Shown here in pieces: positions 795 to 32,006 of a stretch of 64,000 nt of DNA (its first letter is position 1; each line of letters starts with the position of its first letter). A program made the translations under genes and the position numbers. The notes below the pieces were generated by a model, which was given only the letters and a program-made list of their open reading frames with translations, ran no database searches and was not told where the DNA came from. This stretch comes from Paraniabella hibiscisoli (GTDB taxonomy: Bacteria; Bacteroidota; Bacteroidia; Chitinophagales; Chitinophagaceae), in assembly GCF_022512515.1 (NCBI RefSeq), contig NZ_JAKWBK010000001.1, positions 3,534,001 through 3,598,000 of the forward strand. The letters are read 5' to 3'.

Positions 795-1555
795 ATGGCA
801 AATGTGAAGATTTCTGTAAGGGACCTGGTAAAAAACTATGGCGATTTTAAGGCCGTTAAAGGCATTTCCTTCGATGTTTTTGAAAACGAAATATTTGGAT
901 TGCTGGGGCCTAATGGTGCAGGAAAGTCTACTACCCTCGAAATAATAGAAACACTTCGTAAAAAACAAGCGGCTCCGTACAGGTGGCAGGCTATGACCTG
1001 GATGAAAATCCTAATACCATCAAAGGGCTGATTGGCGTACAATTACAGGCCAGCAGTTATTATCCCGGTCTGAGTCTGCTGCAACTGATCGACCTGTTTG
1101 CAGGGTTATATAACCAGAAAGTGGACGGGATGGAATTGCTACGCTCCGTAAACCTGGAAGAAAAGGCAAAGGCGAAGTTCAAAGAGCTAAGCGGCGGTCA
1201 AAAGCAGCGTTTTTCGGTGGCTACCACGCTTATTAACCGGCCGCAGGTAATATTCCTGGATGAACCAACCACCGGCCTCGATCCGCAGGCACGCCGTAAT
1301 TTGTGGGAACTCATTAAAACAATTAAGGCGCAGGGAACCACCATCATTATTACTACGCATTATATGGATGAGGCAGAATATTTGTGTGATCGTATCGCTA
1401 TCATCGATGCAGGAAAGATTGTGGCCCTTGATACACCCGATAACCTGATCGACCACCTGGTCGACTCAGGCTTTGAACGACCAAGAGAGGTGAAGAAGGC
1501 CAACCTGGAAGATGTGTTTATTCAATTGACCGGTAAAACCCTTAGAGAAGCCTGA
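795..1555 (+). CDS. ABC-2 type transporter ATP-binding protein
   Basis: Cytoplasmic ATPase subunit of an ABC transporter of the CcmA/drug-export type, about 253 aa. Walker A is GPNGAGKST, the signature is LSGGQ, Walker B is VIFLDEPTTGLD, and the switch His is in TTHYMDEAE. The reading frame breaks once near 970, where one G appears lost between GCG and GCT; restoring it gives a continuous protein (..LRKKQAGSVQVAGYDLDE..). No permease gene follows: the next gene is an FKBP isomerase, so the membrane partner must be elsewhere or upstream of the window. The substrate cannot be inferred. Confidence 0.88.
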
Positions 1556-1620
1556 TTTATTTACCGGATGAATTGAATGAGTAGTATAGGTTTTATGAAT
1601 TATTTTTGAAAAAATGTTTT

Positions 1621-2064
1621 ATGGATTTGAATTTACAACAAAAATTACGTTCCGCTATGAATGAAAAAATAGAAAAGCAAAAACAGGAAGGCAGCGATTT
1701 TTTAGCCGCTAATAAAAGTAAAGAAGGAGTGCTGGAGCTGGAAGGTGGCATTCAGTATGAAGTGATCAAAGAAGGTACAGGTATACAACCTGAGTTGTCC
1801 GACTCAATAACTGCTCATTATAGAGGTGCATTATTAAGTGGTAAAGAATTTGATAGCTCTTTTAAACGCAACCAGCCTTTTACTGCACGCCTTACCCAAT
1901 TGATCCGAGGTTGGCAAATTGCTATTCCTCTGATGAAAGAAGGAAGCCACTGGAGATTGTGGATTCCTTCAGACCTGGCTTATGGTGACAGGGGAGCTGG
2001 TGGTGATATTCCGGGTGGCGCTACTTTATTGTTTGAAGTAGAGTTATTAAAAGTAAACAAGTAG
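1621..2064 (+). CDS. FKBP-type peptidyl-prolyl cis-trans isomerase
   Basis: Catalyses proline cis-trans isomerisation during protein folding. 147 aa from the ATG at 1621; a TTG five codons upstream is open but less likely. Residues 1-45 form a charged helical N-terminal region. The FKBP domain follows, with ITAHYRGALLSGKEFDSS, a central LIRGWQIAIPLMKEGSHW stretch and the C-terminal LAYGDRGAGGDIPGGATLLFEVELL. There is no clear signal peptide, so it is probably cytoplasmic. The next gene begins 4 bases after the stop, suggesting co-transcription. Confidence 0.9.
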   Translation: MDLNLQQKLRSAMNEKIEKQKQEGSDFLAANKSKEGVLELEGGIQYEVIKEGTGIQPELSDSITAHYRGALLSGKEFDSSFKRNQPFTARLTQLIRGWQIAIPLMKEGSHWRLWIPSDLAYGDRGAGGDIPGGATLLFEVELLKVNK

Positions 2065-2068
2065 GGAT

Positions 2069-2596
2069 TTGGAAATAGAAAATCAATATCCGATTGGACC
2101 CGCTTCTTTTGTAGAATTTTCTACAGCGGCAAAAGAAAGTGCATTGGGTGATATACAATTTTTACCCAATGCGCTGGAAGCCGCAATTCTGAACCTGGAT
2201 GAAGCGCAACTTCAAACGCCTTATCGTACAGGCGGCTGGACGGTTAACCAGGTGGTGCACCATGTGGCAGATAGTCATATGAATGCCTATATACGGTTTA
2301 AGCTCGGCTTGACAGAGCCAATACCTACTGTAAAACCCTATGAAGAACAATTATGGGCAGAGTTAAAAGATGTATCGCTTATCCCCATCAATGTGTCTAT
2401 CACTTTGCTGTTTGCATTGCATCAGCGCTGGTATGCTGCCCTAAAAGACCTGGATGATACCGCCTGGGAAAGATCCGTTTTTCATCCGGCATCACAAAAA
2501 GAATTATCCTTATGGTACTTGCTGCAAATGTATTCCTGGCATGGCAGGCACCATGTAGCACAAATCAATGGTTTAAGGGAGAAAATGAGATGGTAG
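2069..2596 (+). CDS. DinB/YfiT family putative metal-dependent hydrolase
   Basis: 175-aa four-helix-bundle protein of the DinB superfamily, YfiT/BstA-like. Members use a three-His metal site; some are bacillithiol transferases. QYPIGPASF near the start matches the typical YfiT N-terminus, and the metal-ligand regions are VNQVVHHVADSHMN and YSWHGRHHVAQI. No ATG fits this N-terminus, so a TTG at 2069, four bases after the FKBP stop, is the probable start. The thiol cofactor and substrate in this organism are unknown. Confidence 0.8.
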   Translation: MEIENQYPIGPASFVEFSTAAKESALGDIQFLPNALEAAILNLDEAQLQTPYRTGGWTVNQVVHHVADSHMNAYIRFKLGLTEPIPTVKPYEEQLWAELKDVSLIPINVSITLLFALHQRWYAALKDLDDTAWERSVFHPASQKELSLWYLLQMYSWHGRHHVAQINGLREKMRW

Positions 2597-2655
2597 GTTG
2601 ACTGGGGGACACAAATGAGCATCGGCTATGGACCATAAACCATCACCTGTGAACA

Positions 2656-3225
2656 ATGAACAAAAAAATAATGGAGATGAAATGGGAAATACTGAAATCG
2701 GAGCAATTATTTAATGATCTCTGGTTTAAAGTAAGAAAGGATACCTGTAAAACACCGCAGGGGAAAATTGTAGACCCTTATTATGTTTATGAATTCCCGA
2801 CCTGGGTTACCTGCTTCGCTTTAACGGCAGATAACAAGGTAGTAATGGAGTTGCAGTACCGGCATGCCATAGGTGAAACCTGCTGGGAGATTCCGGGAGG
2901 TTGTGTAGATGATACAGATGATAACCTCGAGTTCGCTATTAAAAGGGAACTTTTAGAAGAGACGGGGTATGAATTTGAAAATTTTGAATACCTGGGCAAA
3001 ACCTGTGCTAATCCATCTACCAATAATAACTGGATGCACATGTTCCTGGCAAGAGGCGGCAAAAAAACAGCTGATCAAAGCCTTGATGAGAATGAGGAAA
3101 TACATGTTGAGCTGATGGATCTGGAAGTTTTCAAAGAGAAATTCAGGAATAATGAGTTTATACAATCGATGCATGTGACCTGTATGCTGTATGCGTTGAT
3201 GAAGTTAGGAGAGTTGAAAGTGTGA
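2656..3225 (+). CDS. NUDIX hydrolase (ADP-ribose pyrophosphatase-like)
   Basis: Hydrolyses a nucleoside diphosphate linked to another moiety; the best guess is ADP-ribose, by overall architecture. 189 aa. The Nudix box lies around residues 80-105: the start CWEIPGG and the catalytic REXXEE core (KRELLEETGY) are present. The box has one extra residue and Asp in place of the first Glu compared with GX5EX7REUXEEXGU. ATG codons at residues 1, 6 and 8 are all possible starts. The spacing from the previous gene is 59 bases. A tandem repeat follows the stop. Confidence 0.85.
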   Translation: MNKKIMEMKWEILKSEQLFNDLWFKVRKDTCKTPQGKIVDPYYVYEFPTWVTCFALTADNKVVMELQYRHAIGETCWEIPGGCVDDTDDNLEFAIKRELLEETGYEFENFEYLGKTCANPSTNNNWMHMFLARGGKKTADQSLDENEEIHVELMDLEVFKEKFRNNEFIQSMHVTCMLYALMKLGELKV

Positions 3226-7923: not shown

Positions 7924-9625
7924 TTATGGAACATCCCACCATACGCGGCCTGTTATATCTGTAAGGTTTCCGAAATTTGGGTCTTTCTGCATTTCTTCAA
8001 TAGCAGCTTTTGCATTTGAATAATTAAAATCACTGATAGATGGCACATTAATAGGCCATCTGCGAGGCATCTTGATTTCATTTCCGAGGTTTGTTTTTCT
8101 TTCAAACGGCATAACTACACCTGTTGTACTGGGATAGCCGGTTCGTCTTCTCAAAGCCCATCCTTCACTTGGATTTTTAAAGAAATTAATATATTGCTGT
8201 ACACAGACCTGTTCTACACCTTTAGCCGCATCGTATTTAATTGCAGGCATATTGAGGTAAGCAGCAATTTCGGCATCTGTAACTGCAGTGAATCCAACAA
8301 CTTTTGCATCGCTGCCCCACTCATTGTAATCTCTGATGGAAGCTTCGATGCCTTTTTTATACCAGTCTTCGGCATTTTCTGTAGTAATACCCCTTGCGGC
8401 CAATTCTGATCGCATAAAACAAACATCAGCATACATAATAATAGGGAAACTAACCAATCCCTGATTAATAGCACGATTAAAAAGAGCTAACTGTATTTCA
8501 GACGGATACATAATATTAGCCCCGGGAAAATTATTGAAGTAAAAGCTCTTGTCAGCTTGATTCAACGCTTCAGCGCCAATATAGCGGCCAACATAGTCCC
8601 CATCGTATGTAGCTGTTGCAGGAATAGTTCCTGCAGTCTTTGCCGCATTAAACTGAGTTAAAGTTATAGCTGTTTTTTTGTAAAAATTTCTTATCCTCGG
8701 GTCGCTATTGGTGCGCATGAAGTCAACCATGCCTTTTGGGCCGGCTATACTTGCAAAAGTAGCCCAGTTGCCTCCATTTACGTCATTGCTGCCCGCTTTG
8801 AAATACCAGGACGCGCTGCGACTATTGATAGGGCCTACATTATCTGCCAATACTTCATCGATAATTGCTTTTGCCGCGGCCGGTTTTCTTTTATACATAC
8901 GCATAGCAATTTTTAACCTAAGTGAGTTTGCAGCCATCGCCCAGTTTTGCGCTTCATTTGCTGTGCCATGGTAAAACAGATCGTATGTACCATAAAGCTG
9001 CTGGTTAGGTAGATTACTCTTTAACACAGCAACACTTGCTTTCAGTTCATTATCTAAAATGGTATATAATTGTTCCTGAGTTTCATACTTAGGTGTAAAA
9101 AGCGGAGGGGTTGTATACCTGGCTTTGAAGGCCCTCAGTATAAATAATGCTGCCCACAGCATCTGACAAATAAAATGCGCTATAAGCCATGGGTATATAG
9201 GTGATGGCATTGATATTTTCATACCTGGCCTTATCTGCATCGTTCATTTTGCTGATAATGTTACGTATTTCAACCAGGGCACCACCAGATCCGGTAGTTT
9301 CCCGGGTATAGAAATTGTCTGTACGGTAGGGGCGGGATGAAGCCGTCCAGATTGCAGTGTAATTGGAGGTGGACGCCAAATAAGCAGGCAAACCACCGGT
9401 TCTTACCCAGTAATCGGTCCAGGTTTGAATATTTCTGTTGATGTCATAATAAGCCTCAAAATCATTCAGATTTATTGCTATTACAGCATTGGGAAACAGC
9501 GTCTGGGGTATAGCATTTTCTGCCACAATCAAATCAGGGTCGGTGTTTATTTCAGCAAACTTTTCTCTGGAGCAAGCAGGAAGCAATATCGCTGCACCGA
9601 TTAGGTATTTAAAAAATTGTTTCAT
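7924..9625 (-). CDS. SusD/RagB-like outer-membrane lipoprotein (SusD2)
   Basis: Surface glycan-binding lipoprotein that forms the lid on its SusC partner, about 566 aa. The signal peptide with lipobox LLPACSREKF is near residue 20; INTDPD and the TPR-like helical body are typical of the SusD-like_2 group. The start is ATG 9625 (MKQFFKYLIG), not the ORF start at 9649. One frameshift near 9131 looks like one extra base in GGCC, an insertion rather than a loss. The gene starts 23 bases after the SusC2 stop, as expected for a SusC-SusD operon. Confidence 0.9.
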
Positions 9626-9648
9626 TATGTCTTTTTTAATTTCATTCA

Positions 9649-12600
9649 TTAAAAATCAGCATTAATGGAGAATCCGAATTGACGGAAATAAGGCGTTCCT
9701 CCTCTTTCAATAAATGCACCTGAGCTTGTCGAACTTAAATTATCGGGATTTACATCATCTGGTGCGCTATTATATAGGAACAGCAGATTGGTTCCAGTAA
9801 GCGATACTCTTAAGTTGTTCATTTTTATTTTAGATGCAATGTTTTGTGGGAGTTCGTAAGTAAATGAAACTTCCCTTAAGGACACCCAGGAGGATTCAAA
9901 GGCTGCCATAGATCTTAAGCCAGTTGCCCACCCGTAAGTATTATTATAATAGTCACCTGCTGGAGTTGGTTTAACCCATCCTTTCGCATAAGCATCAGCT
10001 ACTGTCATGCCGCCAACATCATGCTGTTGTCCATCCGGGCTAGCAGCAGCAGGGATTATTGTTCCAGGTGCAAATACACCTACAGGTAAAATACCATCAG
10101 TTCTTGTACCAGGGGCCTGACCGTTGTAGTTGGTTTTGCTCTCATAAGTTAACCCACCCAAATCAGCTGTTCTTCCGAAAAGGGTACTGTTTAACATACC
10201 ATATTGCGACCCATATCCATAAGTGGTTGAATATACCATGCCTCCAAACTTAGCATCCAAAAATGCACTCAATGTAAATCTTTTATAATTAAAGGTATTT
10301 CTTATACTGCCCAGGAACTTCGGTAAAGTAGATCCAATAACCGGATTACCATCACCTCCAACTGTAGGATTATAGGTTGTTGCACGTGCGTAGTAAAGAA
10401 TTGGGTTGCCTAATATGCCGCCGTTAGAAGAAAAACTAACCACAGGCATACCATTTAAAGGGCTTGCAATATTATTTCCCTGACCATCCCGTGCCTGATA
10501 AGAAGCGTAAGAGTAGGGGGCTACTATAGATCCATAATCGCCTCCAACCTGGCCAACTGAATAAATTCCATCATCCTGATCTAATGTTTGAAACTTAGCT
10601 CCAAAGGCTAATGAGAGTATTTTATTGCGATTTCTGGTGTAGTTAACTAATACATCCCAAGAGAAGTCACTTGTTTTTACAGGTGTTCCGAAAAGAGAAA
10701 ATTCGATACCTGTATTTTTAACCTCACCAGCATTTATCAAAGCGCTTCTAACTCCGCTTTCAGCAGGTATCGCCCCTGCTCCAAAAGGAAGAATCTGGTT
10801 TTTTGAGTTTTGTTGGTACCAGGTAAAGTCTCCACCCAATCTGTTTTTGAACATTTTAAATTCAAACCCTGTTTCGTATTTTGTATTACTTATTGGCACC
10901 AGGAAATTGTTAGGAAGCGCATCCCCGTTGATGCCATACCTAAGAATCGTATTGCCGTAGGCGTCTATATAATTGCCATAAGTTCTGTAAGAGCCTGTGC
11001 TGGTTCTGTAAGCATCTGTACCTCCACCCACTTTAGCATACGATAACCGTACTTTTGCAAAATCTATAACCTGAGGCATTTTAACAGCATCTGTAAATAC
11101 AAATGATAAGTCAGCTCCCGGATAAAAATAAGAATAGCTACCATGTCCGTCTCTGTAAATTAATGTACTATTCCAGTCATTTCTACCATATATGTTAAGG
11201 AATGCGAAATTCTTATAGCCAAAACTTCCCTGGTAAAATAGTGAGTTTATTTGTGTGCTGTTGGGCTTTTGTTCAACAGTATATATGTTCGACCCTGCAT
11301 TGTTTGATAATCTAAAAACATCTGGGACTATTAAACCATTAGTTCTTAAAAATACACCATGTGCTTCAGTTTTGTTCAACTCACCACCAGCCTTAATTAA
11401 AACATCAAAATCCCCAAATTTCTTAATGTAATTGAAGTTGCCGTTGTAGCGCGTTTGTCTAACTGTAGCTTCGTTTACCGAATATTCTCCTCCCGCAAAA
11501 TTGTCGTTCCTGCCTCTTACTTTTCCGGTATAGTAGGTGCCTACCTGGTTGTATGAAGCGCTTCCTTCAAACCGTAGCCATTTTGCCAGGTCCGCTCTCA
11601 AGTTAAAATTGCCTCTAAAGTTGTTTTCGTTCTGCTTGTATTTATTTTGAAATAGATACCAAAATGAATTATTAGGACCACCCAAACCTCTTTCTGTAAT
11701 TCCCCAAGGGCCGTATCAACATAATTATTTAGCCAGTAATTGTAATCGAAGTTTCTGGGAACCTGGTAACTGGATGAGTAAAGAATTGAATTGCCGCCCT
11801 GCAACGCCGGGTTGGTTGCATCACTTAAAGTGTAATTCGCATTGAAGTCCATCAACACAGCCTGTATAGGTCTGTGTGTTAACCTAAGTGAGAAATTGTT
11901 TCTTCCAAATTCATTATTGGGAGTTGCGGATTTCGCACTCAAATTTGAATATGAAAATCTAACAGTTGATTTTTCGTTGCCTCCGGAGATGCCAACGTTA
12001 GTATTCCTTGTAATACCTGTTCTGTATAGTGCCAACGGGTCGTTGTATCCTGGATTATTAGGTCTGTATTCTCCTGAAATATCCCTGAACATCTGGCCTG
12101 TCATTTCAGGTCCAAAGCTATAAGCGTAAGAGCCCGTATTAATTTGAAGTGTATCGGCTATAACTTTATTCCAATCATCGGCATGAACGCCGCCACCGAA
12201 TCTGTCTTGTAATTTTACTGTTTTATAAGCGCGTTCAAATAAGAGCGATTGAGAGAAGGAAACGCCAAGACCTCGTTGTGAAAACCCTTTTTTAGTCTTA
12301 ATAAGAATAACACCATTAGAAGCGCGGCTTCCATATAATGCTGTAACAGCGCCACCTTTTAAAACGGAAATAGATTCGATGTCATCCGGATTGACGTTTT
12401 TCAATATATTACCAAAATCCTGATCTCCACCTCGGTTGGGAAGTATAACCTGGTCATCCATAACGATATCGTCAATTACTACCAATGGTTGGTTGCCGTA
12501 AGGATCAAGACTGGCGCTTCCTCTTATCAGAAAACGCGTTGAAGCCTGCGGTCCTCCGGCATTAGGGGTAACTTGTAAACCCGGCACCATGCCTCGAAGC

Positions 12601-25022: not shown

Positions 25023-26030
25023 TTACAGCTGTTTAGACCAGCGCTTCTTAAATAAAATACGATAACAGTCTTTAAGTATTAATATCCATCTGCCGGGAAA
25101 CAACAAAAGTTGTATCAGAAGCAGTATCCAGGCTTTGGGCTGGTGAAATGACGAATAAACTAATAAGGCTGCAGGTAAGAAGAGGTCGGTAAAATCAAGC
25201 AGGAGCGTTTGGTAATTGGATGTTTTATGGAGAAATGAAATAGGCTCCTGGTGTAATACCTTAAACCGGAGCAACATCAGTATCAGGTAAGCAATAAAGC
25301 TGTAATATACAAGAGTTATAGATAACGTATAAATTACGTAAAAGAGCGCAATCGACTCAATCAGTAAAAGCACCCATTCAATATATCTGAAATCTTTTGC
25401 CTCTCGCCGGGTAGCAAAAGTTTCTATACCTGACTTTATATCATTGTCCCGGTCTGTAAACTGATGCCACATAATTCCTCTTATACCACCGCAGGTAGCC
25501 CATACACCTATCGCCAAAAGCCAAAACCAGTTAATGGGATGTTTCGAGATGTAAGAAAGACTACTTACCATTAGCAGGTTAATAAATATGTGAGCACCGC
25601 TTGCGTCAGCCAGCACGCCCCATATGCCCCGGTTTTTAAGCCTGAATGGAGGTAAACTATACATGCTGAAGGCGATCCAGGGAATGGTGTAGAAAATACA
25701 GGACAGCCAGTCGGGATAATAGAAAAACGCTATAAAACAAATGCCGCATGCAATACAGATGATGGGCAAAAGCCATTTCACAAAAACAGGTAAAGAGGCC
25801 ATTTTGTTGGGCTTTCCGGCTCTTGCATCAACCTCAACGTCGCTGATGTCGTTGATAATACTTACATATATTGCCCCTATAATTACCGAAAGCAATATAA
25901 TAACTATGTGTCCGGATGCGTTAAAAAGGTTCTGATCATATAGTAGAAGGGTAGCGTACCCGATCCCAAGTATGGGAGGGAGTTTGTGATCCCACCAGTC
26001 GCCGGTTCTGATAAAGGCTGAAATATTCAT
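25023..26030 (-). CDS. UbiA family prenyltransferase
   Basis: Integral membrane enzyme, 335 aa with about 8-9 hydrophobic segments, that transfers a prenyl chain to an acceptor. Both Asp-rich motifs are present: NDISDVEVDARAGK (NDxxDxxxD, residues about 61-74) and HQFTDRDNDIKSG (DxxxD, about 192-204). The acceptor (aromatic, sugar or lipid) cannot be told. It is the last gene of the minus-strand group with two glycosyltransferases, an ABC exporter and a cyclase-like protein, 49 bases after the GT2 stop. The frame is intact. Confidence 0.88.
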   Translation of the reverse strand: MNISAFIRTGDWWDHKLPPILGIGYATLLLYDQNLFNASGHIVIILLSVIIGAIYVSIINDISDVEVDARAGKPNKMASLPVFVKWLLPIICIACGICFIAFFYYPDWLSCIFYTIPWIAFSMYSLPPFRLKNRGIWGVLADASGAHIFINLLMVSSLSYISKHPINWFWLLAIGVWATCGGIRGIMWHQFTDRDNDIKSGIETFATRREAKDFRYIEWVLLLIESIALFYVIYTLSITLVYYSFIAYLILMLLRFKVLHQEPISFLHKTSNYQTLLLDFTDLFLPAALLVYSSFHQPKAWILLLIQLLLFPGRWILILKDCYRILFKKRWSKQL

Positions 26031-26079: not shown

Positions 26080-27005
26080 TTACTCCAACATCACCACCTG
26101 CGGTATGCTTTTAAAGGTCTGGCGGGCATCCAGGTAAAATGATCGGGCAAGCAACTTAACCGTCTTTACCAGGTTAAACTCGCGAATAAGATTGTGCTTA
26201 GCTAATTCAACCAGGCTGTAAATATGCTTATTGCGCATTATTTTATAATGCGCGTTTTTCATCTTCGGCTTAAAATCGTAGAGCATCTTATCCATATCGG
26301 CAATGTATAGATGCTCCAGCACTTCGCTTCTCTTTCTACCGTCATAAACATTGATGGGGCCCACACATTTTTTCCAAAGGCGATCCAGTGTAAAAGCGGC
26401 TTTCCGTTCACCTGCATACAGTACTGAAAGATATAAATACCAATCATCTCCTACACGTATATTGTTATTCCAGCCCTGCTGTATAAGGCTCCTTTTTATA
26501 ACTGCTGAAGATGAAGGAGAGGGGCAGGCTTGTGCATAAACCGATCTTAATTCATTGAAGTCCAGATTTACCCAGCTTTCTTTTTTCTATGAAAGTAGGG
26601 TTGAATGAAAATATCGCTGGATAAAAAATCGTAAATTCTTCCGTTAGCATCTTCCTGGTCCCAGTTTGCAAAAACAAAATCCAGGTCATCTGCCTGTAGT
26701 TTTTGCACGCAACGTTCCAGGAAATCAGGATACCAGATATCATCAGAGTCGAGTGATGCTATGAATTTACCGGTTGCGTGCTTCAGGCCGGCATTTCTCG
26801 CGCTTGCCTGTCCGCCGTTCTCTTTACTAATTACAATGATATTGTGATAATTTTTTAAAACTTCAGCGGTGTGGTCTGCTGATCCATCATCTACTACGAT
26901 GATTTCTATATGCTTATAGGTTTGCGCTAGTACACTGTTTATTGAATGACTAACCGTATTAGCACGGTTATAAGTTGGTATTATGACGGAAACTAGAGGG
27001 TTCAT
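26080..27005 (-). CDS. Family 2 glycosyltransferase
   Basis: About 308 aa GT-A fold transferase using an NDP-sugar. PLVSVIIPTYNRANTVSHSI and IIVVDDGSADHTAEVL begin the fold; the DXD equivalent is SLDSDDIWYP. The C-terminal acceptor part includes GDDWYLYLSV. One A is missing from an A-run near 26583; corrected sequence reads RKKESWVNLDFNEL. It starts 7 bases after the GT4 gene, so the two are probably one transcript. Sugar and acceptor unknown. Confidence 0.88.
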
Positions 27006-27012
27006 TTGTAGC

Positions 27013-28174
27013 TCAAGATATTATTTTTATTATTAAATCTGAAAAAATACGCTCGGGTAGTGCCGGTACCTTTTCTTTTACAAATGCGTTCGCATTTTTA
27101 CCGATTAGCTCCCAGGAATTCCTGTTTTCCCACGCATCTTCCATCGCCTTAGCAAAATCTTTTACAGTTGCATCTGCAATAAAACCATTTACGCCGTGTT
27201 GTATGATCTCTGCATGTCCTCCCGCTGTACTTACTATCACTGGTCGTCCTACTGCCATTGCTTCCAGAGTTACCAGGGGTAATCCTTCACTCCTGGAGGG
27301 CAGGATAAGAGCATGATAAGAGGTCCAGAGGTTTTCGACATCATTTATATGTGCAGCGAATTTCACATTTTTAACATCCAGCATTTCGGCTAAATCCTGG
27401 AGGGCTTTTTGGTCCGGTCCGCCACCGATAAAACTTACTTCAATCGGGCGATCTTTCCAGGATTGATCTGCAAGAATTCGCAAAAGAATATCCTGTCCCT
27501 TATCCAGGATAAAAAAACGACCAATACATGCAAATTTATATAAATGTTCGGCGGTTGGCAAAGGGGAAATTTCCCGTTTAAATTTAATAGGGTTCCAAAT
27601 TACCTCAGCATGGGAAAAGCGAAAACCAAATTGCTCTTCTGTTAAATTGAGGTTTTGCTGAGATACAAAAAAGCATTTTTGAGCATTTTGCCAAACCTCG
27701 ATCATAATGGGGCGTTCCGTTTCAGACGGCCAAAAAAGTCTACGCCTTTATGGCTAATAATAGCATAAGGTATTTTCAGCTGGTAGCACTCATAAGCGTG
27801 ACCCAGGCCGTCGAAGTTGATGCCCTGATTGATCAGAACCAGGTCGGGTCTATCCTTGCTTAATTTTTTCTTAATTGTGCGGCATGTTCATTGTTGTAGT
27901 GAATCCTATTAGTGCCTTTGTTGAAAAACCGATTTTTTACTTTTTGAAAAGTTCGGCTGGCGAAGGTTTTAGGTTTAAATGCTACAAAGCGAACTCCCTG
28001 CGCTTTTGCTTTTATTATAGATGGGTGATGGGTATTAAACGTTTCTTTATAGAGGGTTACCTTGTGGTTTTGTTGTATGAGTATGGGCGCAGTTTGTGCC
28101 CACAATTCTTCACTTCCGCCCCAGTCATTGCTGCAGCAGGTTATAAATGCTATATGCTTTTGCCTCACTTTCAT
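27013..28174 (-). CDS. Family 4 glycosyltransferase
   Basis: About 387 aa, GT-B fold retaining glycosyltransferase. The N-terminal domain starts HIAFITCCSNDWGGSEELW, with the glycine turn that binds the acceptor; the C-terminal domain has FACIGRFFILDKGQDILL and the nucleotide-sugar EX7E motif in SRSEGLPLVTLEAMAVGRPV. Two frame breaks, near 27868 (A-run) and 27735 (T-run), each a missing base. Its ATG overlaps the end of the ABC exporter gene by four bases (ATGA), strong evidence for translational coupling with the exporter. Confidence 0.88.
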
Positions 28175-29997
28175 TTGGTTGTCGCCTTTTCTTTTTCAGC
28201 TACCGCATTTTCATTAAAAATAGATGCATAAGCTCCTTTGCGTTGCATGAGTTCTTCATCTGTACCCTCTTCTACCACTTTCCCGTCGGCTAAAACATAA
28301 ATGTAGTCGGCATGAAGTATGGCAGAACGTCTATGACTTATAATGACTGCTCCGCGATTGCCGATCCTATCTCTGAACGAACCAAACAGCTCCTTTTCAG
28401 AAACCGCATCCAGCGCGCTGGATGCTTCATCAAAAATGAGAAAACGTGCATCAGAATAGAAGCACCGGGCTAACGCAATTTTTTGCCATTGTCCAATGCT
28501 AACCTCCTTGCTGTCTTCAAATATTCTGCCCATTGTGGTTTCATAACCATCGGGGAATGACTCGATAAAGGAGGCGATACCCGATTTTTCAGCGGCTTCT
28601 TTAACGCGCTGTGGATTATAAGGTTGATGAATGTTGCCAAAGAAAATGTTCTCGCCGGCACTAAAACTATATCGGTTAAAATCCTGGAAAACCACTCCCA
28701 GTTGTTTACGGTACTCTAATGCGTTTAGCTGTTTGATATTCTTATTCCCGTATAGTATCTCTCCTTCAGTAGGATCGTACAGGCGGCAGAGTAGTTTTAT
28801 AAGTGTTGATTTTCCCGCTCCGTTCAAACCCACCAGGCCAATAATTTTGCCAGAGGGAATGGTTAGGTTGATACCGGAAATGGTTTGCTTATCTGTGTAA
28901 GGGTAGCTGAATTTTACATCCTTTAGTTTTATACAGATATCATTTTCCAAAGGCATTGATTCAGTATCAACATCCTTTTCCATATCATTTTCGAGTTGCA
29001 GCAATTCGAAAGAACTATTAATATAAATACTATTCTGATAAATATTTGAGATGCCCCCGAAATATTCTGAAGTAAACCAAATGCTTGTGGAAAAGCAAAA
29101 AGAAACAGTGAAATGTCTCCGGTGCTTGATTCACCGGATATAGCTCTTAAAGCAATAAACCCGATACAAAAGAAAATGCCCACATATGATAATGCGGTGG
29201 TGGCTACTTCGAGCTGGGTTTTTTCAAGCTAAGAGAAAGTTTCTCCTTAACAAGAATATTTCTGATCTCACTGAATTTCGTTTTAAGATGGGCGCCTAAC
29301 GAGTAGGTACGGATTTCTTTGGCGGCCGTGTCTGTTGTAATCAAGCTGCTGAAATAAGCTGATTTACGCTCTAATGGTGTTTGGGCTATCCGTAGCTCGT
29401 TCAGTTTTTTCGAATATTTTAAGCGAATAAATAAAGTAGGAATTATAAACAGGGCAATGATGGGCAGTAAAAGCCAGTTGATGAGTATGAGTACCGAAAC
29501 TACTGCCGCCAGGGATAAACAGTTCTTTAATATTTCAATTAATGTAGCAATAATCAGCCCGGGTTTGTCTGTCCCGGCCTCCATCGCTCTTTTTAAAATA
29601 TCATAGTAGGCCGGACTTTCGTAAAAAGAAAGCTGGAGATTTACTGCTTTTTCATGTACATTTTTGTTAATGAACTCTGAGACTTTGGTTGAAAGCACTT
29701 CAACAGAATAAGTACTGAACGATCTCAATATAAAATAAACAACACCGCTATTCCGCTAAAAATTACATAGCCGATAATATTGGTATGAGCAGCTCCGGCC
29801 TCCAGCTGTGTTTTCACAACCATGTCGATTAGTAACTTCATTAAATACAGGGACGCAAAAAAGGCAAGGGTCTCTAAAATAATGAGTGTTAAGGAAATGT
29901 ATAACCATCCCGGTGCAGCAGCTTTAACCAGGTTTAATATCCTCGGAAGATTTAAATTATTTTTAAGATGAAAAATTTTATTACGTATAGAAGGCAT
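28171..29997 (-). CDS. ABC exporter, fused membrane and ATPase domains
   Basis: About 609 aa half-transporter, likely a homodimer. The N-terminal membrane domain has several long hydrophobic helices (WLYISLTLIILETLAFFASL first) and no peptidase domain. The ATPase part has Walker A GLVGLNGAGKST, Q-loop VVFQDF, Walker B FLIFDEASSALD and H-loop IISHRRS. The signature is VSIGQWQ instead of LSGGQ, a variant seen in some exporters of peptides or glycolipids. Three one-base losses, near 29729, 29222 and 29055, break the frame. Sits between the cyclase-like and GT4 genes, so it probably exports the product of this group. Confidence 0.88.
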
Positions 29998-30071: not shown

Positions 30072-30113
30072 ATGCCGTGAAAGAAGGGGCTGTGGGTTAA
30101 TTTTAATCCATTT

Positions 30114-31160
30114 CTAATAGCGTAGTTTTAAACAAATGTAGAGCCTCAATACAATAAGCGGTTGTAGCTTCCTCGCTACCCCAAACCAGCGGCCCACCCG
30201 TAACCAGTTCATACCTTTGCCACTCTCCGTTAGAGCTTGTCTTGATAATAAAAGGGTTACATATTCTTCGATCTTAGGATCGATAACATTTAACTTAAGT
30301 AAAGAAGTTGTTGCGAGGGCTATTTCAAGATCACAGTGTTGAAAATTCTTGCTGCTATTTACCGCATTTTTTATTTTTTCCTCGAATAAAGATTTTATAT
30401 CCCAGACTTCAGGAATGTCCAGGTCGTACAATCTAGAAATAAAGTAATAATGAACGATTTCATTCAAATACCACTTGTCGGGTATTTTGCCTTTATTTTT
30501 GATCATTTCATCTATGATATGCTTCACTACGGGCTTCGTAATGTCATTATAACCCAGGTAAGAAACCACATTACAATTGATCACCAGGTCAATATCATTT
30601 CTACGATGAGTGGCGCTGGTCCAATACAAAAAGGTACTAATGGGCGCTTTGAGTTCCCTGGCGATAAGCCGCCAGTATTTTCGGGAATATTTGAAAAAAT
30701 TACTATGGAGTGTGAACCAGGTATAGAATAATCCCTGTTTGTTTCTATTTAAAAGAATTGTTTTGATGTTATCGGGGTACGAAACATTTCTTTTCCTCAA
30801 AAAATTACAAACTAATGCTGTGTCATCTACATCGGGTGGCAAAATTTTGAATTTCGGATGCCATTTCGCATAGAACTGCCATATGCCGCCTCTTACATCC
30901 TGGTACGAGAGATAGTTGGTTGATTTGGTTAATAGCTTGTCAACTAATGGATTGTCCTGGAAAGGTATAAGACAGTTTCCTATTTCTGCAGTGAATCCTG
31001 TATTGCTTTCCGGCACGCACCATTCCTGCATTGCAGCGTCCGGAGACATGTAAGTGGCAAATTCTCCGCTGGCCAATTGATGCTCTACCAAATAATTGAT
31101 TGCTTTTTCTATCGCTTTTTCGATCTTTTGTAGAAGGTCTTCTTTTGAGGGACTAATCAT
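30114..31160 (-). CDS. Class II terpene cyclase-like (prenyltransferase/squalene oxidase repeat) protein
   Basis: 348 aa, frame intact. It contains PPDVDDTALV at about residue 111: DVDD is the DXDD acid motif of class II (protonation-initiated) terpene cyclases such as squalene-hopene cyclase and copalyl diphosphate synthase. N-terminal AINYLVEHQLASGEFATY and GGIWQFYAKW resemble the QW-type repeats of alpha-toroid proteins. It is about half the size of squalene-hopene cyclase, so at most one toroid is present. No signal peptide. Starts 52 bases after ispE, an isoprenoid precursor gene, and precedes an ABC exporter. Cyclase activity is an inference; members of this fold may be non-catalytic. 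Confidence 0.6.
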   Translation of the reverse strand: MISPSKEDLLQKIEKAIEKAINYLVEHQLASGEFATYMSPDAAMQEWCVPESNTGFTAEIGNCLIPFQDNPLVDKLLTKSTNYLSYQDVRGGIWQFYAKWHPKFKILPPDVDDTALVCNFLRKRNVSYPDNIKTILLNRNKQGLFYTWFTLHSNFFKYSRKYWRLIARELKAPISTFLYWTSATHRRNDIDLVINCNVVSYLGYNDITKPVVKHIIDEMIKNKGKIPDKWYLNEIVHYYFISRLYDLDIPEVWDIKSLFEEKIKNAVNSSKNFQHCDLEIALATTSLLKLNVIDPKIEEYVTLLLSRQALTESGKGMNWLRVGRWFGVARKLQPLIVLRLYICLKLRY

Positions 31161-31212: not shown

Positions 31213-32006
31213 TCAGGAAATATTGTTTGGGAAGGTTGAGTTGTACAGGAGTGTTTTTTCGAATAAGCCGTATATCGTGCTACCGCTGCCGCTCATAATT
31301 GCAAATATAGCGCCTGCCTGGTACAATTGTTTTTTAATTGCCGCTGTTTCAGGAAACGCTTCAAAAACAGCATCCTCAAAATCATTAAAAATGTAATTTT
31401 TCCATTTGTGCGGAGGTTGGGCGATACTTGTCTTAAGGTTAAATTGAGGTGGCGCAGGTTTTAGCTGTCCGAATGCCCAGGGGGTTGAAATATGGATACC
31501 CGGGTTTACAATTACTATTTTGTAAGGGCTTAGATCTACCTTCACTTCTTCAAAAACTTCTCCGCGACCAGTTGCCAGTGATGGTTTGTTTAGAATGAAA
31601 AACGGGCAGTCGCTACCCAGTTGCAAAGCATAATGAAGCAGTTGTTGTTCAGTTAAACCGAGTGCGTATTTTTGGTTTAATGCTAATAAAGTATGAGCGC
31701 CATTGGCGCTTCCGGCTCGAGCCCTGCTCCGGCAGGCAGGTTTTTTAAGAGGTAAAAATGAACAGGCGGAAGGGCATGGAAGTCCTTTTTCAACAGATTC
31801 CAGGCTTTAATAATGATATTATTTTCAGCAGACCCCGGAATAGATTGGCCTACAACTGTAATGCCTGTTTGGGGCGCATCTATAAGCTCAATAACATCGT
31901 AAAATGGCAGGGGAAAGAAAACGGTTTCGAGATTGTGATAACCATCCGGCCTTTTTGCGGTAATATATAAACCAATGTTGATTTTACAATTAGAAAACCG
32001 GATCAA
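31213..32006 (-). CDS. ispE: 4-diphosphocytidyl-2-C-methyl-D-erythritol kinase
   Basis: GHMP kinase of the MEP pathway, phosphorylating CDP-ME on the way to isopentenyl diphosphate. About 264 aa. N-terminal CKINIGLYITAKRPDGYHNL is diagnostic, the GHMP phosphate loop is LPAGAGLGAGSANGAH, and the C-terminal MSGSGSTIYGLFE is motif III. One G is missing near 31718. It lies just upstream of the DVDD protein in the same direction; as a core gene this may be coincidence or may reflect an isoprenoid theme. Confidence 0.93.

Follow-up and report, generated by a model that had tools for sequence, protein, structure and literature searches.

The most likely product of one gene in the window, the 64,000-nucleotide stretch of Paraniabella hibiscisoli DNA analyzed here, is a single-domain enzyme that cyclizes linear isoprenoid chains. 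In our preferred reading, to which we assign a probability of about 0.7, it acts as a free-standing monodomain class II cyclase in partnership with a UbiA-family prenyltransferase, and its product would then be glycosylated and exported. This reading builds on family-wide profile matches and the model of an orthologue, on the conservation of catalytic residues, on the motifs of the UbiA proteins, and on a conserved gene cassette that includes one UbiA-toroid fusion.

The toroid gene and its neighbors

The features of the locus are listed below; residue numbers are those of the window protein, AstC and AsDMS are characterized cyclases, and related loci carry L numbers.

30103..31160, minus strand: TC-beta toroid, predicted monodomain class II-type terpene cyclase (ORF as called, 30114-31160)
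30822..30833, minus strand: acid motif D110-V-D112-D113 (D112, presumed proton donor), mapped by hand to AstC D271/D273 and AsDMS D331/D333
30570..30572, minus strand: Asn197, mapped by hand to AstC N324, an acid-positioning residue
30468..30470, minus strand: Tyr231, mapped by hand to AstC Y361 and AsDMS Y427
28171..29997, minus strand: ABC exporter, MsbA-like half transporter, in three ORF pieces (604 aa and unbroken in L010)
27013..28174, minus strand: GT4-type glycosyltransferase (WGGSEELW...), in ORF pieces
26080..27005, minus strand: GT2-type glycosyltransferase, in ORF pieces
25023..26030, minus strand: UbiA-family prenyltransferase, with NDxxDxxxD and HQxxDxxxD both intact
31213..32006, minus strand: ispE, the MEP-pathway kinase, an isoprenoid-precursor gene, in two ORF pieces, 52 bases upstream of the toroid gene and on the same strand

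The annotated C-terminus of the toroid is wrong, as the last ~35 residues of the called ORF are out of frame. The frame shifts near position 30230, and the true C-terminus lies in the next frame, from ~30231 to a stop at ~30103. There, 42 residues (30106-30231) begin with NGEWQRYELVTGGPLVWGSEEATTAYCIEALHLF..., which agrees with WGSEEATTAYCIEAL in the relatives; the stretch as a whole, NGEWQRYELVTGGPLVWGSEEATTAYCIEALHLFKTTLLEMD, restores the WGSEExTTAxxxEAL-like ending of the family. The window assembly is noisy (83% complete). The exporter, both glycosyltransferases, and ispE are split in the window and unbroken in the relative L010, so that the broken frames at this locus look like assembly error.

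Taken alone, the window protein gave no match at an E value of ≤1 in Pfam or, by phmmer, in the Protein Data Bank (PDB), and its NCBIfam search returned nothing beyond a chance-level match to RNAP delta. A profile search of its own genome detected no squalene-hopene cyclase domain (PF13249).

Members and distribution of the family

Toroid relatives were present in 6 of 16 genomes of the same genus (own genome excluded) and in none of the 42 other genomes of that sample. Species genomes provided 23 loci, from Niabella, Pedobacter, Hymenobacter, Chitinophaga, other Chitinophagaceae, Fibrivirga, Paracnuella, Bacteroidetes metagenome-assembled genomes (MAGs), and one Anaerolineae MAG, and further relatives were found in one Nostoc and on one Novosphingobium plasmid. 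Matches at an E value of ≤1e-10 occurred in 6 of 395 genomes of the phylum samples (own genome included), and 4 of 201 genomes from the phylum of the Anaerolineae genome matched at ≤1e-8 (that genome included). No toroid relative was detected in the viral contigs searched. The distribution of the family is sporadic.

Altogether, we retained 37 distinct toroid loci and aligned 38 proteins, the window protein included. Both counts contain L059 (which holds L044) and L068, two profile-only finds that have no tblastn match to the reference toroid. Loci retrieved more than once were counted once (L016 = L011, L017 = L012, L022 = L014, L058/L060 = L036, L039/L040/L042 = L054/L055/L056, and L043/L045 = L057). 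Unbroken free-standing members are mostly 337 to 373 aa long, and most carry the C-terminal stretch described above; exceptions in size are the fusions (Nostoc, L038, and L066), the distant L057, L067, and L068 (311 to 319 aa), and L044 (526 aa). In the tree, the members from UbiA cassettes had a monophyly support of 0.318 and were not resolved as a group.

Two loci differ in architecture. L031 harbors tandem toroids (8884-9972 and 9983-11035), the first of which lacks NRxxxGLFYTW and keeps the Asp pair. The L044 protein (1468-3048, minus strand; identical to L059 8784-10364) has a hydrophobic N-terminus, matches the family profile at 1.4e-16, and keeps the Asp pair, the Asn, and the Tyr, with no cassette around it.

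Profile and fold comparisons

The sequence-only reading had proposed a profile search against class II cyclases. With a profile of 28 members (A5), all 23 PDB sequences matched at an E value of ≤1 were class II-type cyclases, judged by the names of the molecules or the titles of the entries, among them 6ij1, which bears only the name "Prenylcyclase." AsDMS was the best match (1.5e-17); the values were 4.4e-9 for AstC, 1.4e-5 for squalene-hopene cyclase (SHC), and 0.19 for MstE.

A model of L016, an intact orthologue (pLDDT, 88.9; pTM, 0.90), pointed in the same direction. It shows the alpha/alpha toroid fold of a beta domain and superimposes on AsDMS with a Z score of 29.5 (2.9 Å, 289 residues aligned), on MstE with 28.5 (3.3 Å, 303 residues aligned), and on SHC with 26.5; Foldseek likewise ranked AsDMS first. 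The model thus spans the single free-standing beta domain of MstE over 303 residues, and it consists of a single toroid, not of the beta and gamma domains of SHC and oxidosqualene cyclase (OSC). A HAD-like phosphatase domain was matched neither in the window protein nor in the 28 members scanned. Another model, from a set of seven sequences headed by the frameshifted window protein, was of poor quality (pLDDT, 62.6) and was kept out of the fold search. For the window protein, the predicted cyclase assignment accordingly comes from the family profile and the orthologue model. The sequence-only reading had called the protein half-size, a label that is misleading because MstE is reported to be a whole enzyme with one toroid.

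Pfam matches among the 28 members were to SQHop_cyclase_C (16/28; best E value, 5.4e-5) and, weakly, to pectate lyase, another toroid (13/28; best, 3.1e-4). The matches to pectate lyase and to TED_complement were set aside as general toroid similarity. Non-cyclase toroids (cellobiose 2-epimerases and AprG) reached Z scores of about 20 to 23 against the L016 model, the range in which true class II cyclases such as human OSC (22.5), CPS (22.0), and Rv3377c (21.6) also fall. Fold alone is therefore no proof of cyclization, and the residues carry more weight.

Catalytic residues

Equivalent residues were mapped by hand along the profile alignments, in which AstC D271/D273/N324/Y361 correspond to D109/D111/N196/Y230 of L016 and to D110/D112/N197/Y231 of the window protein. 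The sequence PPDVDDTALV, which had first drawn attention to the 348-aa ORF (30114..31160, minus strand), is indeed there, and its Asp pair is kept in 38 of 38 relatives, so that the motif is beyond chance. The sequence-only reading had made its case depend on the conservation of the aspartates in homologs. This holds for the first two, at the AstC D271 and D273 positions, each of which is Asp in 38/38 aligned proteins; the third, at the AstC T274 position, is not strict (26 D, 8 S, and 4 N). The acid-positioning network of AstC is retained as well, with Asn at the N324 position in 35/38 (Ser in L024, L029, and L056) and Tyr at the Y361 position in 37/38 (Cys in L068).

These positions are known to matter in the two closest enzymes. 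Mutation of D271, N324, Y361, or T274 in AstC and of D331, D333, or Y427 in AsDMS is reported to abolish all product, the structure identifies D273 as the acid of AstC, and the diphosphate is described as bound by AstC K314 and AsDMS R378 (PMC12365925, PMC13244436). Against the main reading stands the variability of the third motif position, given that T274 is essential there in AstC. Residue-level alignment to AsDMS and AstC suggests that the acid motif of the window protein would face the toroid cavity.

The same data bear on a toroid that merely binds or presents a prenyl chain or a glycan. Such a role would agree with a fold common to non-cyclase toroids and with the loss of NRxxxGLFYTW in the first L031 paralogue, but that paralogue also retains the acid pair, and the Asp pair, Asn, and Tyr persist across Bacteroidota, a cyanobacterium, and an alphaproteobacterium. 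Since the catalytic residues are conserved, we consider this alternative, which the sequence-only reading had also raised, improbable. Profile, model, and alignment favor instead the minimal cyclase named in that reading, now specified as a complete single-toroid class II-type cyclase with conserved catalytic residues.

The gene cassette around the toroid

The toroid had been described as lying beside UbiA and an exporter. The exporter is directly adjacent; UbiA follows only after this gene and those of the two glycosyltransferases. The ispE gene is also found directly upstream of the toroid in L010 (by profile match) and L012 (by similar sequence).

We examined the surroundings of the toroid in 37 loci (29 loci plus L054 to L057 and L059, and L066 to L068). 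An intact UbiA prenyltransferase was present in 30 of the fetched loci. Seven loci lack it, a point against the main reading: L023, L036 (the same place as L058), L057, and L067 are near a contig end (within about 3.3 kb), and L059, L066, and L068 have about 8 to 9 kb on each side. The chance of finding a UbiA gene within ±10 kb is roughly 1.6%, as calculated for the own genome alone (about 5 over-cutoff places in 6.1 Mb). A GT4 gene accompanied UbiA in 28 of the 30 loci (all but L008 and L038) and a GT2 gene likewise in 28 (all but L038 and L055), although L008 has just a domain of more distant glycosyltransferases. ABC exporters occurred in 28 of the 30 (all but L055 and L056) and are of two unrelated types, MsbA-like in 19 and Wzt-like in 9. 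Across loci, the gene order varies and the exporter types swap, with UbiA as the constant. In Nostoc, a single ORF of 1,218 aa corresponds to a fusion of PhyH, UbiA, toroid, and TPR; L038 has a PhyH-toroid fusion.

Sequence distances between toroids and between UbiA proteins correlate over 22 loci (r = 0.74), a value reached in 0 of 2,000 permutations. For all pairs among toroid, UbiA, GT4, and GT2, r ranged from 0.57 to 0.83 over these 22 of 30 loci (0 of 2,000 permutations each); the loci are related and not independent, and the correlation may reflect species descent alone. Eight loci did not enter this comparison: three with broken genes (the window, L011, and L014), two lacking GT4 (L008 and L038), and L054 to L056, which had not been added.

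The UbiA proteins have intact Asp motifs, with NDxxDxxxD and HQxxDxxxD invariant in 15 of 15 aligned sequences. Among solved enzymes, they come closest to chlorophyll synthase (2.9e-5) and DGGGP synthase (0.15), and they have weak NCBIfam matches to homogentisate phytyltransferase (9/15; best, 9.3e-10) and chlorophyll synthase (7/15). A possible match in the literature, Ubi-297 (PMC9235831), was rejected, as its gene is part of the ebo cluster and the text does not contain the word "cyclase."

In L025 to L028, L032, and L056 (Hymenobacter and one other genome), the locus also encodes a large protein that combines an acyltransferase domain with a cytochrome P450-like domain at the C-terminus; Pfam was run on L026 only, and the other loci were assigned by similarity.

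Distant members in other contexts

Some distant members occur in different surroundings. The L057 toroid (1803-2762; L043 is the same place) has genes for NHLM ABC1 and ABC2 exporters, an NHLP precursor, and radical SAM and SPASM proteins nearby. The L066 toroid (8412-9761, minus strand) begins with an NHLP-leader-like domain (5.8e-11; 42.1 bits against a cutoff of 50.9) and is located near an NHLM ABC1-like exporter (just under its own cutoff), an NHLP precursor, and a tryptophan-halogenase-like gene. A cluster for ribosomal peptides here contains a protein that resembles class II cyclases. Both proteins keep the catalytic Asp pair, the Asn, and the Tyr.

These two members, one of them fused to a leader-like domain, are what speaks for a toroid acting on peptides, a substrate that the sequence-only reading had guessed at. 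At the window locus this guess found no support: the cassette exporter tested (that of L010) lacks a C39 peptidase domain, and an unsystematic look at the small ORFs of the cassette brought up no precursor peptide. We regard a peptide-acting toroid as the least probable of the readings, and highly improbable.

In L067, a polyprenyl-synthase gene (PF00348, 1.4e-26) sits at the contig end, with a single gene between it and the toroid. Near the toroids of the Anaerolineae phylum, two proteins (L058 15017-16009, minus strand, and L068 5935-6921) contain acidic stretches that, by eye, recall class I isoprenoid synthases; neither gave a meaningful Pfam or NCBIfam match.

Proposed reaction and order of steps

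As a monodomain cyclase, the protein would bind a linear polyprenyl chain inside the toroid and use D112 to protonate its terminal double bond. N197 and Y231 would hold D112 in place, and D110 may assist, perhaps as a base, as has been proposed for AstC. The substrate could be a prenyl diphosphate that is cyclized with the diphosphate kept and then serves as the donor for UbiA, or a chain already linked to an acceptor by UbiA, the order of MstE. Glycosylation by the GT4 and GT2 enzymes would follow, and the ABC exporter (MsbA-type here and Wzm/Wzt-type elsewhere) would carry the product to the cell surface or past it. The two orders are variants of the main reading, and we weigh them as shares within it.

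If cyclization comes first, the toroid would yield a cyclic prenyl diphosphate, drimane- or labdane-like, as donor for UbiA. The nearest solved relatives, AsDMS and AstC, cyclize farnesyl diphosphate (FPP), and AstC, reported to have no phosphatase activity, yields a pyrophosphate product. L067 has a polyprenyl-synthase-like gene in the vicinity of its toroid. The phosphate-binding basic position of these enzymes (AstC K314/AsDMS R378) is occupied by Arg or Lys in 28/38 members, but it is nonbasic or a gap in the other 10, including L025, L026, and L028 from Hymenobacter and L024 and L029 from Chitinophaga. UbiA enzymes normally use linear donors, which counts against this order. We give it the larger share, still short of half; its small advantage reflects the free diphosphates that the nearest enzymes use as substrates.

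If prenylation comes first, UbiA would load an acceptor such as homogentisate or hydroxybenzoate, and the toroid would cyclize the attached chain. MstE, reported to be a monodomain class II cyclase that uses geranylgeranyl dihydroxybenzoate, offers a precedent. UbiA and the toroid are neighbors and are fused in Nostoc, and homogentisate phytyltransferase is the commonest, albeit weak, NCBIfam match of the UbiA members. However, no recurring aromatic-acceptor gene was noticed beside the five cassette genes in the partly annotated flanks, the profile is closer to the free-FPP enzymes AsDMS and AstC than to MstE, and the basic residue kept in 28/38 members also argues against this order, which we therefore regard as conceivable, with the lesser share.

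Significance and comparison with known cyclases

The combination of a toroid with UbiA, two glycosyltransferases, and an ABC exporter suggests an undescribed exported sugar-terpenoid in several bacterial groups. More tentatively, the cassette may be a sporadic module, found in Bacteroidota and an alphaproteobacterium and partly fused in a cyanobacterium, for an undescribed surface or secreted glycolipid. Its lipid would be a cyclic terpenoid made by the UbiA/monodomain-cyclase pair and exported by an MsbA-type or O-antigen-type (Wzm/Wzt) transporter, with a side branch of the family modifying ribosomal peptides in NHLP clusters. Monodomain class II cyclases as such are already known. In the literature searched, whose coverage leaves out most subscription journals, we found no paper on the cassette or the family.

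If the main reading is right, monodomain class II cyclases extend to an uncharacterized family with genetic ties to prenyl transfer, glycosylation, and export, and the cassette points to an undescribed class of bacterial sugar-terpenoids. The fusions to UbiA and to an NHLP-leader-like domain are handles on the substrates that one-domain cyclases may accept. As Pfam matches are absent for the window protein and weak for its relatives, such clusters may escape genome mining.

HAD-fused class II cyclases have been described before (PMC9128629, PMC12365925, PMC13244436). The best match of the family in both sequence and fold is one of these HAD-TC-beta proteins, the bacterial drimenol synthase AsDMS of Aquimarina spongiae. 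The equivalents of its Asp331, Asp333, and Tyr427 are kept and an NRN..G stretch is common to both, but the window family lacks the HAD phosphatase domain, has UbiA, glycosyltransferase, and exporter neighbors, and carries DxDD, DxDS, or DxDN in place of DxDTT. With AstC, the fungal drim-8-ene-11-yl pyrophosphate synthase, it shares the equivalents of Asp271, Asp273, Asn324, and Tyr361 and, in 28/38 members, a basic residue at the K314 position; in contrast to AstC, it is bacterial, free of a HAD domain, and part of a cassette. MstE, the merosterolic acid synthase of Scytonema, was reported in 2020 as the first monodomain class II cyclase and is described as acting on a prenylated aromatic acid. 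It resembles the window family in size, in its single free-standing toroid, and in having an acid Asp motif, but it is distant in sequence (E value, 0.19), and in the window family UbiA is accompanied by glycosyltransferases and an exporter. SHC and the class II diterpene cyclases, finally, share with the family a beta domain with an Asp acid motif, but they possess a second (gamma) domain where the window family has one toroid.
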